Below, piece by piece: positions 50,238-53,405 of a stretch of DNA of 64,000 bases (position 1 is the stretch's first letter; each line of letters starts with the position of its first letter). A program made the translations under genes and the position numbers. The notes beneath the pieces are model-generated. The model was not told the origin of the DNA. It was given only the letters and a program-made list of their open reading frames with translations, and did not search any database. Location: NCBI RefSeq assembly GCF_900186955.1, contig NZ_LT906438.1, positions 3,534,001 through 3,598,000 on the forward strand. The letters are read 5' to 3'. Origin of the DNA: Bacillus pumilus (GTDB lineage: Bacteria > Bacillota > Bacilli > Bacillales > Bacillaceae).

Positions 50238-50927
50238 GTGAGTTCAGATTCCCTTTCCTATTATCACCAAAAAAAGGATCAGTATTATCATGGCGTGAAC
50301 CCGGTCATTGTCAGCCGTATTCGTGAGGAATGGACGTCTTTATTGGATATCGGATGCGGCACAGGCAAGCTTGGAAAAGTCCTGAAACAAAAGGACCGGA
50401 CCATTTATGGAATTGAATCGTTTGAGAATGCAGCAAAAGAGGCTGAGCAAGAGCTAGATCATGTGCTATGCGGAAATATTGAACAGATGACGCTCCCTTA
50501 CGAACAGGAACAATTTGACTGCATTATATTCGGAGATGTCCTTGAACATTTATTGGACCCGTGGGCCGTTTTAAAGAAGGTCAAACCTTTCCTTAAAAAA
50601 GAAGGAGCCATCCTGTCATCCATTCCAAATATCGGTCACATATCAACCGTTTTAGAATTATTAGCCGGCAGATTCACTTATACAGATGCAGGATTAATGG
50701 ATCAAACTCATTTACGTTTCTTCACTCTTCATGAAATTCATGCACTTTTTCATTCAGCAGGCTTTCGTATTCGCGAACTCGAAACCATTCGCGTACAGCA
50801 TCCTACCTACGCGAGCGTGATGAGTGATTTACATGAATTACTTATGAAGCATGGCATTCGTTCAGATTTTCATGAGGCCGCTACCGCCTATCAGTATGTG
50901 GTTGAGGCGGTTCAGCTTCATGAGTAA
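50238..50927 (+). CDS. Class I SAM-dependent methyltransferase
   Basis: 229 residues with the SAM-binding loop LLDIGCGTGKLGKVL (near residue 35), acidic YGIES, CIIFGDVLEHLLDPWAVL and GAILSSIPNIGHIS. This is the Methyltransf_23 type often found beside glycosyltransferases. The GTG start has AAGGTGG 7 bases upstream. It overlaps the next gene by 8 bases, so the two are a coupled pair, probably modifying a surface sugar. Target unknown. Confidence 0.82.
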   Translation: MSSDSLSYYHQKKDQYYHGVNPVIVSRIREEWTSLLDIGCGTGKLGKVLKQKDRTIYGIESFENAAKEAEQELDHVLCGNIEQMTLPYEQEQFDCIIFGDVLEHLLDPWAVLKKVKPFLKKEGAILSSIPNIGHISTVLELLAGRFTYTDAGLMDQTHLRFFTLHEIHALFHSAGFRIRELETIRVQHPTYASVMSDLHELLMKHGIRSDFHEAATAYQYVVEAVQLHE

Positions 50928-51588
50928 CCCCACCATCCTGTTTGTTTTATGTGTAAATGATGAGTCTATGTTTCAGGCTTGCTTTCGGCAGCTCGCTTCA
51001 CTTCCTGCTCCCCATGGATATCATGTGGAGGTTTTGCCGATTAGACATGCATCCAGTATGACCTCTGCTTATAATGAAGCCATCACTCATCCAGCTCAGT
51101 TTAAAATTTATCTTCATCAAGACACCTTGATTGTCAAACAGCATATGCTGCTTGAGTTGATCCCGCTTTTTTTACAAAATCCATCACTTGGGATGATTGG
51201 GGTCATAGGTGCAGAAAGCGTGCCTGACAATGGAATCTGGTGGGAAAGTCCTGATTGCAGGGGGAAAGTCATTGAATATCGTCACGACACCTATCAGCTG
51301 CTTTCGTTTGAAAGTGGTCGTCAACAGGCAGAAACGCAAGATTATATGAACGCTTCGGCGATTGATGGTCTTTTCATGGCGACGCAATATGATGTGAAGT
51401 GGCGTGAGGACCTCTTTGATGGCTTTCATTTTTATGATGTTTCGCAATCCTTTGAATTCATGCAACAGGGCTATGAGGTTGGCATTGCGAAACAAGAAGA
51501 GCCTTGGTGCATCCACAAATGCGGAGATCATTTTGATGCGGAAGCATATGAAAAAGCGAGACAAACATTTCTTGCAAAATATCGATAG
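50920..51588 (+). CDS. StrF-type glycosyltransferase-like protein
   Basis: 222 residues starting NPTILFVLCVNDESMFQACF, with SMTSAYNEAITHPAQFKIYLHQDTLI (DXD-like HQD) and GMIGVIGAESVPDNGIWWES, then IDGLFMATQYDVKWREDLFDGFHFYDVSQSF. The layout fits the glycosyltransferase family named after the StrF domain. The ATG overlaps the preceding methyltransferase stop. Terminator hairpins follow. Confidence 0.75.
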   Translation: MSNPTILFVLCVNDESMFQACFRQLASLPAPHGYHVEVLPIRHASSMTSAYNEAITHPAQFKIYLHQDTLIVKQHMLLELIPLFLQNPSLGMIGVIGAESVPDNGIWWESPDCRGKVIEYRHDTYQLLSFESGRQQAETQDYMNASAIDGLFMATQYDVKWREDLFDGFHFYDVSQSFEFMQQGYEVGIAKQEEPWCIHKCGDHFDAEAYEKARQTFLAKYR

Positions 51589-51610
51589 AAAGCACCCTTT
51601 TTGGGTGTCC

Positions 51611-51650
51611 AGAATGTAGAGAAACTCATGTTTTTCTACATTCTTTTTTA
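51611..51650 (+). terminator. Terminator after the glycosyltransferase gene
   Basis: AGAATGTAGA and TCTACATTCT form a perfect 10-bp stem followed by TTTTTT. A smaller CACCC/GGGTG hairpin (51593-51607) precedes it. Confidence 0.88.
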
Positions 51651-51663
51651 TTTTCCACATCAT

Positions 51664-51869
51664 GATGTTAGGTACCCGATAAACATCATTTTGAACAAAA
51701 TAAGTGGATCGAGAGAAGGACGACCTTATTTCTCACTATAATACCGTTTTACTTTATCTATGATAAATGAAAAATCAATGTACTGATCAATTTTACGAAG
51801 CAAGTGATCGTGTTCAACCAATTGATCTAGTCATACAAATTCAGCTTCGTGCTGAGAAGAATGTCTAAT
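51664..51869 (-). pseudogene. Relic of an IS1182-type transposase (N-terminal part)
   Basis: Translating the minus strand in one frame gives HEAEFV, stop, LDQLVEHDHLLRKIDQYIDF, SFIIDKVKRYYSEK, stop, then GRPSLDPLILFKMMFIGY. This is the start of DDE transposases of the IS1182 type (EFVSxxxLVPxDHLLRKID...GRPSLDPxxLFKMM). Two in-frame stops, and loss of everything after ~70 codons at the adjacent terminator, show it is dead. It marks past insertion at the edge of the rap-phr region. No terminal repeats found. Confidence 0.8.
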
Positions 51870-51944
51870 GTGGAACATGAGAAAAACACCTTCCTTTAAT
51901 ACGCTTTTCTCTATTATAAAATGGGGAAATGTAAATTTTAAGGG

Positions 51945-51979
51945 GGAAAATAAAGCTGTCGAGATTTTCTCGACAGCCT
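51945..51979 (-). terminator. Terminator after phr
   Basis: GCTGTCGAGA and TCTCGACAGC form a perfect 10-bp stem with a 3-base loop; TTTATTTT follows on the minus strand. Confidence 0.88.
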
Positions 51980-52003
51980 GACCCTAAAGGTCTGTTTGAT
52001 TCA

Positions 52004-52288
52004 TCAAGTAGATAATCTAGAATCACGTGTTCCAAAACGAACATCAGGATTTTCACTAGAACGGGTTCCATTCCTCACAGCAAAATCGTTATCTTGTTGA
52101 GATAAAGTTATAAGAGGAAAATCCTCAGTAGTAACGCTACTGCCTGTAGCATTCCTTACAGTCAGATCAGTGGATTCTGGAGAAGTAGCATTTCTTGAAT
52201 TCACATCAAAATCGACAGATGATAAAGAGATCACACCTAGCAATGCTGAAGCACTCAAAAAACCAGTAAGAACCGTTTTAAAATTCAT
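52004..52288 (-). CDS. Phr precursor with several pentapeptide-like units
   Basis: A 94-residue exported pre-peptide, about twice the usual Phr length. A signal-like start (FKTVLTGFLSASALLGVISL) is followed by repeated units DVNSRNATSP, LTVRNATGSS, FAVRNGTRSS and PDVRFGTRDS. SRNAT, VRNAT, VRNGT and VRFGT resemble mature Phr pentapeptides such as SRNVT (PhrE) and ARNQT (PhrA). Phr peptides are secreted, trimmed by proteases including Vpr, re-imported by Opp, and inhibit their Rap. It overlaps the rap 3' end by 11 bases, the normal rap-phr arrangement. AAAGGGG is 11 bases before the ATG. Confidence 0.85.
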   Translation of the reverse strand: MNFKTVLTGFLSASALLGVISLSSVDFDVNSRNATSPESTDLTVRNATGSSVTTEDFPLITLSQQDNDFAVRNGTRSSENPDVRFGTRDSRLST

Positions 52289-53405
52289 ATGAACAGTCGC
52301 CCCTTTGGATTTGTTTTCGGGCGTACATCACTTTTTCATACATTTTTACAGATTCATCCATACGCCCATTCTCATTATAGTACCGAGCCGCTTCAAGCGC
52401 TAGGTCTTCCATATATGGATAACCCCTCTCATTCTCTAATTTTTCCAACGAGCTCAAGACTTCACTTAGGTTTGCTGTTTTTAAAAATAAAATTTCCAAT
52501 ACCATCAGCAACGATAAAAACAGATCATTTTTTCTATTCTTCGCTTCTTCCAAGCCTCTTTTGAAAAATCTTTCACCCTCAATAAATTCCTTTTGACTCA
52601 AATGAAATAACGATAATTCATAATAAACCAAAAGCAACTCTGTAGCATTAATAGGCTCTCCTTCTAGAATAACCTGATTAAAATAAGCTAGCGCCCTATT
52701 ATAATCACCTAATCCTTTATAACAACACCCAGTATTAAATAATGACTTCACAATCATTGGCTTATTAGAAATTGCCTTAGATTTTTCTAAAGCTGACAAT
52801 AAATGAGGAAGCGCCTTTTCTCTGCATTCAAAATCAATGAAATTACCTGCCATAACAGTTAGACAATTAATTTCTCGAATCATATAAAGTGAATTACTCT
52901 TATGTGCCTTATAAGTATCATAAGAAAGACCAACGTAATACATAGACACGTGTGTCTGTTTCATGTGATAAAACACTTCTGATAATTTGTAATAAAATTC
53001 CGCTCTTTCTAACTCATCCCCTACTTGCTCCAAGCGCTTTTCCGCGCGCTTATAGAACACAATAGCTCTAATAAACTCACCATTTTTGAATTCATACATT
53101 CCTTGAAAAAAATTAAAATAGTATTCAAGAATGGCTGACATCTTCTTTCCTTGTCCTTCTACAGCTTTCAAGTAATCCGATTTTTCAAGTGGTTCTTTAG
53201 AAGGCTGCACATAGTCTGTCATCAATTGATGACGGAACTCCATCAACTGAAAATAAAGAACCGCCTGTTCATCTTCTTCCATGACATCGATATCTTTTCT
53301 AACCTCTTCTTTTAGTATTTGGGCCTCTTTAACATTGAATCTTTTTATATGGTTATACCATTCATTTATCTTGATCGCTACAACTGGAGACGGTATAGAC
53401 GCCAT
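52278..53405 (-). CDS. Rap-family regulator (phosphatase or ComA/DegU binder)
   Basis: 375 residues, the standard Rap length. N-terminal three-helix bundle (VVAIKINEWYNHIKRFNVKE, then QFMEFRHQ-type YFQLMEFRHQLM) and six or more TPR units (for example YYKLSEVFYHMKQTHVSMYY, KSLFNTGCCYKGLGDYNRAL, YYELSLFHLSQKEFIEGERF, EAARYYNENGRMDESVKMYE). Rap proteins dephosphorylate Spo0F or block ComA/DegU and are inhibited by a cognate Phr. The ATG follows AGGGGGG by 7 bases. Its target cannot be told from sequence. Confidence 0.93.
   Translation of the reverse strand: MASIPSPVVAIKINEWYNHIKRFNVKEAQILKEEVRKDIDVMEEDEQAVLYFQLMEFRHQLMTDYVQPSKEPLEKSDYLKAVEGQGKKMSAILEYYFNFFQGMYEFKNGEFIRAIVFYKRAEKRLEQVGDELERAEFYYKLSEVFYHMKQTHVSMYYVGLSYDTYKAHKSNSLYMIREINCLTVMAGNFIDFECREKALPHLLSALEKSKAISNKPMIVKSLFNTGCCYKGLGDYNRALAYFNQVILEGEPINATELLLVYYELSLFHLSQKEFIEGERFFKRGLEEAKNRKNDLFLSLLMVLEILFLKTANLSEVLSSLEKLENERGYPYMEDLALEAARYYNENGRMDESVKMYEKVMYARKQIQRGDCSYEF

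Follow-up and report, generated by a model that had tools for sequence, protein, structure and literature searches.

The multi-pheromone Phr proteins already known raise the question why cells keep differing copies of a pheromone in one precursor. It is raised again by a short reading frame beside a rap gene of Bacillus pumilus, located in a stretch of 64,000 nucleotides (contig NZ_LT906438.1, positions 3,534,001 to 3,598,000), which is called the window here. The initial annotation described this frame as a Phr precursor that may encode four different pentapeptides. The units are compared here with the pheromones used by related receptors.

Structure of the precursor gene

The features of the locus are collected in Table 1. 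The 94-residue frame is real. It runs on the minus strand from an ATG at 52288 to a stop codon at 52004-52006, while the plus-strand frame over the same positions is interrupted by stops. Like a Phr propeptide, it is a small ORF overlapping rap, and shares 11 nucleotides at its 5' end with the 3' end of that gene. The first 72 nucleotides are 93-94% identical, as DNA, to those of multi-unit precursors from plasmids. Sigma-H-like sites number 13 in both strands of the window, and 0.11 would be expected over the length of rap.

Table 1. Features of the rap-phr locus (positions in the window)
Feature	Position	Strand	Basis
phr-type gene for a 94-aa precursor with five xRxxT units	52004..52288	minus	ORF, translation, homologues
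N-terminal 24 aa, hydrophobic, signal-peptide-like	52217..52288	minus	judged by eye from sequence
Unit 1, SRNAT, aa 31-35	52184..52198	minus	
Unit 2, VRNAT, aa 44-48	52145..52159	minus	
FPLIT, aa 57-61, possible degenerate unit	52106..52120	minus	inference from relatives
Unit 3, VRNGT, aa 71-75	52064..52078	minus	
Unit 4, VRFGT, aa 83-87	52028..52042	minus	
Unit 5, SRLST, aa 90-94, extreme C-terminus	52007..52021	minus	
AAAGGGG, likely phr ribosome binding site	52300..52306	minus	11 nt upstream of phr ATG
Rap receptor, 375 aa	52278..53405	minus	RapH_N and TPR matches, PDB relatives
Sigma-H-like promoter site within rap	52567..52593	minus	12/13 positions of the consensus; weak

All four units named at first are present, but the C-terminal SRLST had been overlooked and the count is five. 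The description of a Ser-rich linker after each unit holds only in part: Arg-Asp follows unit 4, and unit 5 ends the protein. SRLST is a C-terminal pentapeptide with Arg at position 2, as in a Phr, and occupies the place where single-unit precursors hold their pheromone. A sixth unit, now degenerate, may be present in FPLIT, since FRLIT occurs in that region of plasmid-type relatives.

It is very improbable that the frame encodes a small protein unrelated to Phr, with xRxxT repeated merely through its amino acid composition. The ORF has no match to Pfam or NCBIfam at the cut-off, which would suit such a protein, but the overlap with rap in a place identical to that of the ordinary Phrs of Raps 69-72% identical, the exact pheromone matches given below and a shuffle test all speak against it. 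At least five R..T motifs in the mature part were obtained in 57-74 of 200,000 shuffles, varying with the assumed start of the mature part, while [SV]R.[AGS]T reached five matches in none of 200,000. Chance origin of the pattern was rejected on this test. Among the 147 ORFs of the window (ATG start, at least 60 residues), phr is the only one with at least three [SVAI]R..T motifs within 75 residues. Together with the homologues described below, these data support the reading of the frame as a Phr precursor whose pheromone-like units are several and differ from one another.

Conservation of the units in homologous precursors

In total 29 homologous precursors were found, and those with a species name belong to B. 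safensis, B. pumilus or B. altitudinis. Adding the window precursor and those of three loci gives a set of 33. The repeat number in pumilus-group homologues, which the initial annotation had proposed to check, ranges from 4 to 7: xRxx[T/I] matches number 4 in 11 precursors of the set, 5 in 11, 6 in seven and 7 in three, some of these matches (TRSTT, TRSAT) possibly arising by chance. The remaining precursor, P0019, has two and is apparently frameshifted. A C-terminal S[RK]xx[T/I] is present in 32 of the 33.

Free degeneracy of three units, the outcome named at first as contrary to several signals, is not what the homologues present. Unit 1 in the form SR.AT and the C-terminal S[RK]xx[T/I] are each kept in 28 of the 29, the exception being P0019 in both cases. 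At the position of unit 4, IRFGT occurs in some homologues. The Arg of unit 2 is missing in 10 of the 29, eight by loss of one residue and two (P0013 and P0029) by a larger loss, which indicates that not all units are essential; that of unit 3 is lost in P0004. In P0010, the commonest B. pumilus form (on 86 contigs), unit 2 has no Arg and the stretch with FPLIT is missing.

The mean column identity to the window precursor falls from 0.89 at the Arg and Thr of the units to 0.81 over all unit columns, and to 0.68 in the linkers. Random placement of five 5-mers equals the conservation of the units in 936 of 20,000 trials (P about 0.05), so the excess over the linkers is weak by itself and was dropped as strong evidence. 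L018 and L032, two chromosomal relatives, each differ from the window precursor by one synonymous change and no replacement in the alignable codons of the units. L018 has Ile instead of Val at the first codon of unit 4, outside the codon comparison, and L032 has unit 2 without Arg. The homologue and codon comparisons agree with the early view that the units are old and diverged and not fresh duplicates.

Several shorter precursors (L019/L034, P0014, P0024 and P0027) terminate directly behind a new SRNAT or SRVAT, as though a truncation had been followed by reconstruction of the C-terminal unit.

The losses in unit 2 and the FPLIT/FRLIT variation would also be expected if only one pheromone, SRLST or SRNAT, were working and the other units were relics of duplication and specificity switching in the course of being lost, as the transient-duplication model of Even-Tov 2016 (PMC5199041) would have it. 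We regard this as rather unlikely. Units 1 and 5 are retained almost throughout, and Arg and Thr stay while the other letters vary. It is important to note, on the one side, that RapK2-KR responded to only one of the two types encoded by its Phr (PMC5199041) and, on the other, that release and activity of both internal and C-terminal pheromones have been proved for Phr3T and Phr105 (PMC11343458).

The adjacent Rap receptor

The protein encoded by rap matches Pfam RapH_N (1.3e-24), followed by TPR families, and the solved structures nearest to it in sequence are those of Rap3T, RapH, RapJ and RapF. Of the eight RapF anchors, Y66, Y152, D194, N227 and D338 are kept and three are changed (Q183N, R223K and Q263L). 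The equivalents of D194, which binds the pheromone Arg, and of N227, the backbone-binding Asn, occur in all 86 distinct aligned Raps, including this one. RapF Q263 contacts pheromone residue 1, and the Leu found there in the window Rap resembles P263L of RapC, by which peptide binding was disrupted (PMC3601957).

The position of RapH Q47 is occupied by Glu in the window Rap and in 25 of the 86 aligned Raps altogether. RapH Q47E retains wild-type phosphatase activity (PMC3035606), so a role toward Spo0F is possible for the window Rap, and the idea that this Glu abolishes Spo0F activity was withdrawn.

Identity between the window Rap and multi-unit Raps of plasmid type (L061, L062, L019 and L034) is 89-90% over residues 1-155, but 51% over residues 160-345, the peptide-binding TPRs, and 80-83% at the end. 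The window Rap is thus mosaic-like, with N- and C-terminal parts near L061, L062 and L019 around the divergent middle part, and either recombination or fast divergence may have produced this arrangement. That the peptide-binding block is the most diverged part among the multi-unit relatives would also suit a receptor that has changed its specificity and left relic units behind.

A tree of 26 Raps unites the multi-unit Raps, both chromosomal and plasmid-type, with those using SRAMT and SRVMI in one clade (100/100). The Raps with VRNAT, VRNGT, IRFVT, IRFGT and IRLGT form another (100/100), and the IRLGT Rap of the window's own genome, L002, falls within it. At the position of RapF Q263, Gln is found in 16 of 20 S-type classes of Raps, I, A or L in 7 of 10 V/I-type classes (T, R and Q in the others), and L, L and P in the three multi-unit classes; these counts, which treat the Raps as unrelated, give hints that the multi-unit pocket may accept both the S- and the V/I-kinds of peptide.

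Match to the dedicated pheromones of other Raps

A Phr candidate was present at 111 of 120 loci with a Rap, and six further records were added. The comparison set consists of pumilus-group Raps at least 48% identical to the window Rap, a limit set after a gap in the list was seen. Among the matches listed, with 191 lower-ranked ones beyond, 31 pumilus-group plasmid records have a Rap of at least about 48% identity, and 21 of them were read. Nine of the ten others match the DNA of the SRNAT plasmid L070 at 96-99% over part of their length, and the tenth resembles the SRVAT records.

The dedicated pheromones of these mostly plasmid-borne Raps are SRAMT, SRVMI, SRKAT, SRVAT, VRNGT, IRLGT, SRNAT, IRFGT, VRNAT and IRFVT. 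All ten distinct pheromones read are found as units somewhere in the multi-unit family, and three of them in the window precursor itself. SRNAT is the sole pheromone-like unit in the Phrs of L069, L070, L072, L082 and L126, VRNAT occurs twice in those of L071 and L084, and VRNGT is the single unit in the Phr of plasmid pBP7 (L081/L036). Internal copies that can be C-terminal pheromones elsewhere have been named pseudo-repeats (PMC11343458), and these three units correspond exactly to pheromones of other systems. VRFGT is one change from dedicated IRFGT, the single unit in the Phrs of pSGAir0031 and pBPL056. SRLST was not found as a dedicated pheromone among the Phrs of the loci compared, the nearest being SRLAT, one change away. 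The nearest Raps with ordinary single-unit Phrs (69-72% identical) use SRAMT and SRVMI, both of which are units in multi-unit relatives. IRFVT stood on a list of six candidates before retrieval and was then found as the sole pheromone of pPL10 and pBP-MRL1; the other five (SRLST, FRLIT, SRVMT, SRLTT and VRFGT) were not found as dedicated pheromones in the Phrs read. The match to dedicated pheromones lends indirect support to the initial suggestion that the units may address several Raps.

In contrast, only two of nine pheromones of Raps from other Bacillus groups (45-54% identical) are units: SRLAT, SRFAT, IRNLT, VRMAT, SRYST, SRNMT, TRNRT, SRNAT and SRKAT were compared, and the seven that are exclusive to other-group Raps are absent from the units of the family. 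With the same 48% limit the other groups give one of five (SRLAT, SRFAT, IRNLT, VRMAT and SRKAT). The difference between 10/10 and 2/9 has a Fisher P of 0.0007, related sequences being treated as independent. Shuffling the unit columns, again with sequences treated as independent, gave a mean of 1.8 matches and a maximum of 8 in 100,000 trials (P <1e-5), and the two matches of the other groups are at the shuffle level (mean 1.6). Below 48%, the other Phrs of the window's genome (NRNHT, QRGHT, SRKQT, IRAIT and I/N/DRNTT) have no counterpart among the units of the family, nor have other-group pheromones at 41-44% (ERNVT, SRNIT, SRNVT, RRGHT, SRGHT, ARNQT and others), which are outside the count of nine.

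The compared Raps belong to one clade or its sister clades, so a shared binding code is expected. It is possible, though not probable, that the match reflects such a code and that all units act on the same Rap as a matter of dose or tuning, with graded affinity. This is the case for Rap3T, whose affinity differs between the internal and the C-terminal pheromone although both have the same effect (PMC11343458). However, the letters agree beyond what is obtained when units are shuffled within the S and V/I classes (P 2e-5) or dedicated letters are shuffled within class (P 9e-4), kinship being ignored in both tests. None of the seven pheromones exclusive to other-group Raps in this range of identity is a unit, and the V/I-type sister Raps have pocket residues different from those of the window Rap. 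The identity of internal units to pheromones used elsewhere also weighs against their being relics.

Codons of units and dedicated pheromones were compared for eight pheromones, SRVAT and IRLGT being left out. Most pairs have 2-4 synonymous differences and the flanks differ, which indicates that the peptides agree without agreement of the DNA, or that the agreement is old; recent copying from plasmid pheromones to units, or the reverse, was rejected on these grounds. L062 and L063 look alike at their 3' ends (SRVMI, stop and terminator), and an older recombination is therefore possible.

One assembly, G023, contains a five-unit chromosomal precursor and two plasmid-like contigs of 5,463 and 6,435 bases with further Rap-Phr pairs, whose Phrs hold SRNAT alone and VRNAT twice. 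Its rap and that of B. safensis FO-36b (L018) lie at identical contig coordinates. The window's genome has the chromosomal L002, whose IRLGT is a unit in the homologue P0013.

Genomic setting

The GC content is 34.7% for rap and 37.5% for phr, compared with 42.6% for the window. The neighbouring glycosyltransferase-like gene (50851-51588) is present in all 17 genomes taken as pumilus group, while the chromosomal type of rap-phr (at least 97% identical) is found in four (G000, which is the window's genome, G021, G023 and G024). It adjoins the glycosyltransferase-like gene in three of these; in G024 it lies 3 kb from a contig start and that gene is on another contig. The locus is accessory and was probably acquired.

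Downstream of phr there is a repeated element (51605-51981) with the hairpin GGCTGTCGAG..CTCGACAGC; the segments 51604-51667 and 51670-51981 are present in many copies in this and related genomes. In L018 and L032 the DNA past the element reads DPKACAPCPFLESCT, which we take to be typical of IS transposases. The element beside the acquired pair looks like an IS remnant.

The window's genome has sixteen Rap-like matches (L001-L016). L004 has an internal TGA, and no convincing Phr was seen downstream of L005, L006, L014 and L015. A second multi-unit Phr, with IRNTT, NRNTT and DRNTT, lies downstream of L009 (G000:C1:1208069-1209175).

Proposed function

The gene anatomy, the five units, the adjacency to rap, most pocket anchors, the variation of the units and the match to dedicated pheromones are directly established. 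With moderate confidence we propose that the locus is a chromosomal rap-phr quorum-sensing cassette whose five non-identical units are in several cases released, some silencing the cognate Rap and perhaps sister Raps. After export of the precursor, extracellular proteases of the subtilisin type would release from it several peptides of five residues or slightly more (eight subtilase matches were found in the window's genome). The released peptides would be re-imported, and some would inactivate the adjacent Rap by occupying its TPR pocket; the target would be Spo0F and/or ComA. The likeliest peptides for the cognate Rap would be SRLST, at the C-terminus, and SRNAT, the best conserved of the units. 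Points against the proposal are the frequent loss of unit 2, the three changed anchors of the Rap, and the absence of SRLST and VRFGT among the dedicated pheromones read. The repertoire of the family includes the dedicated pheromones of sister Raps, so the remaining units may act on those Raps by cross-talk; otherwise they may keep earlier specificities of the window Rap.

A more tentative proposal is that of a polyglot precursor, in a family that collects and keeps the current pheromones of sister systems, so that one gene silences several Raps. These would be its own Rap and those of resident or neighbouring plasmids, and P0013 would extend the list to a chromosomal Rap of the L002 kind. The differing copies are in effect a list that matches every dedicated signal read for the sister receptors, with natural single-signal controls. 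The choice between dose, relics and cross-talk is thereby reduced to a small binding matrix of five peptides and about seven Raps.

Comparison with known systems

Precursors with different pheromones have already been described (Even-Tov 2016, PMC5199041; mBio 2022, PMC9765709; Felipe-Ruiz 2024, PMC11343458). A multi-pheromone Phr is not unprecedented, and the window gene adds to a described type. Its match to the repertoire of sister Raps is the part not met in the text found of these three papers. The names pumilus, safensis and altitudinis are absent from the main text of PMC11343458, to which the search was confined, and pumilus is absent from the text found of PMC9765709. Neither pumilus nor safensis appears in that of PMC10075063, and the two mentions of pumilus in that of PMC5199041 do not concern this precursor. 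A literature search with the five pentapeptide strings gave nothing relevant among the matches listed, mostly words from sRNA work.

The best solved relative of the window Rap is that of the Rap3T-Phr3T pair of phage phi3T (PDB 8rst; PMC11343458). Phr3T resembles the window precursor in having differing internal and C-terminal pheromones, both of which, in Phr3T, are released and active. However, it is phage-borne with two units (RRGHTA and SRGHTS), whereas the window precursor is chromosomal with five units of the xR[N/F/L]xT kind. Several similar but non-identical units are also found in RapH-related Phrs with varying [S/I][D/I/N/Y]RNT[T/I] repeats (PMC5199041). These belong to another Rap branch, and are resembled by L009, whose Rap is 35% identical to the window Rap. 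Phr105 and the RapK2-type Phrs have repeated pheromones too, but as identical or near-identical copies (ERPVGT/EKPVGT; PMC11343458, PMC5199041). Related Raps of other groups (L026, L027, L052, L053, L056 and L058, of which L026 is from B. paralicheniformis and L027 from B. haynesii) have precursors with three to five nearly identical ERNVT units each.

The pumilus-group plasmid cassettes (pBA64, pBP6000, pBP7, pPL10, pSGAir0031 and others) belong to the same Rap clade or to sister clades. The pheromone of each is a unit of the window precursor family, but each cassette has one unit only, or two identical copies in the VRNAT type.
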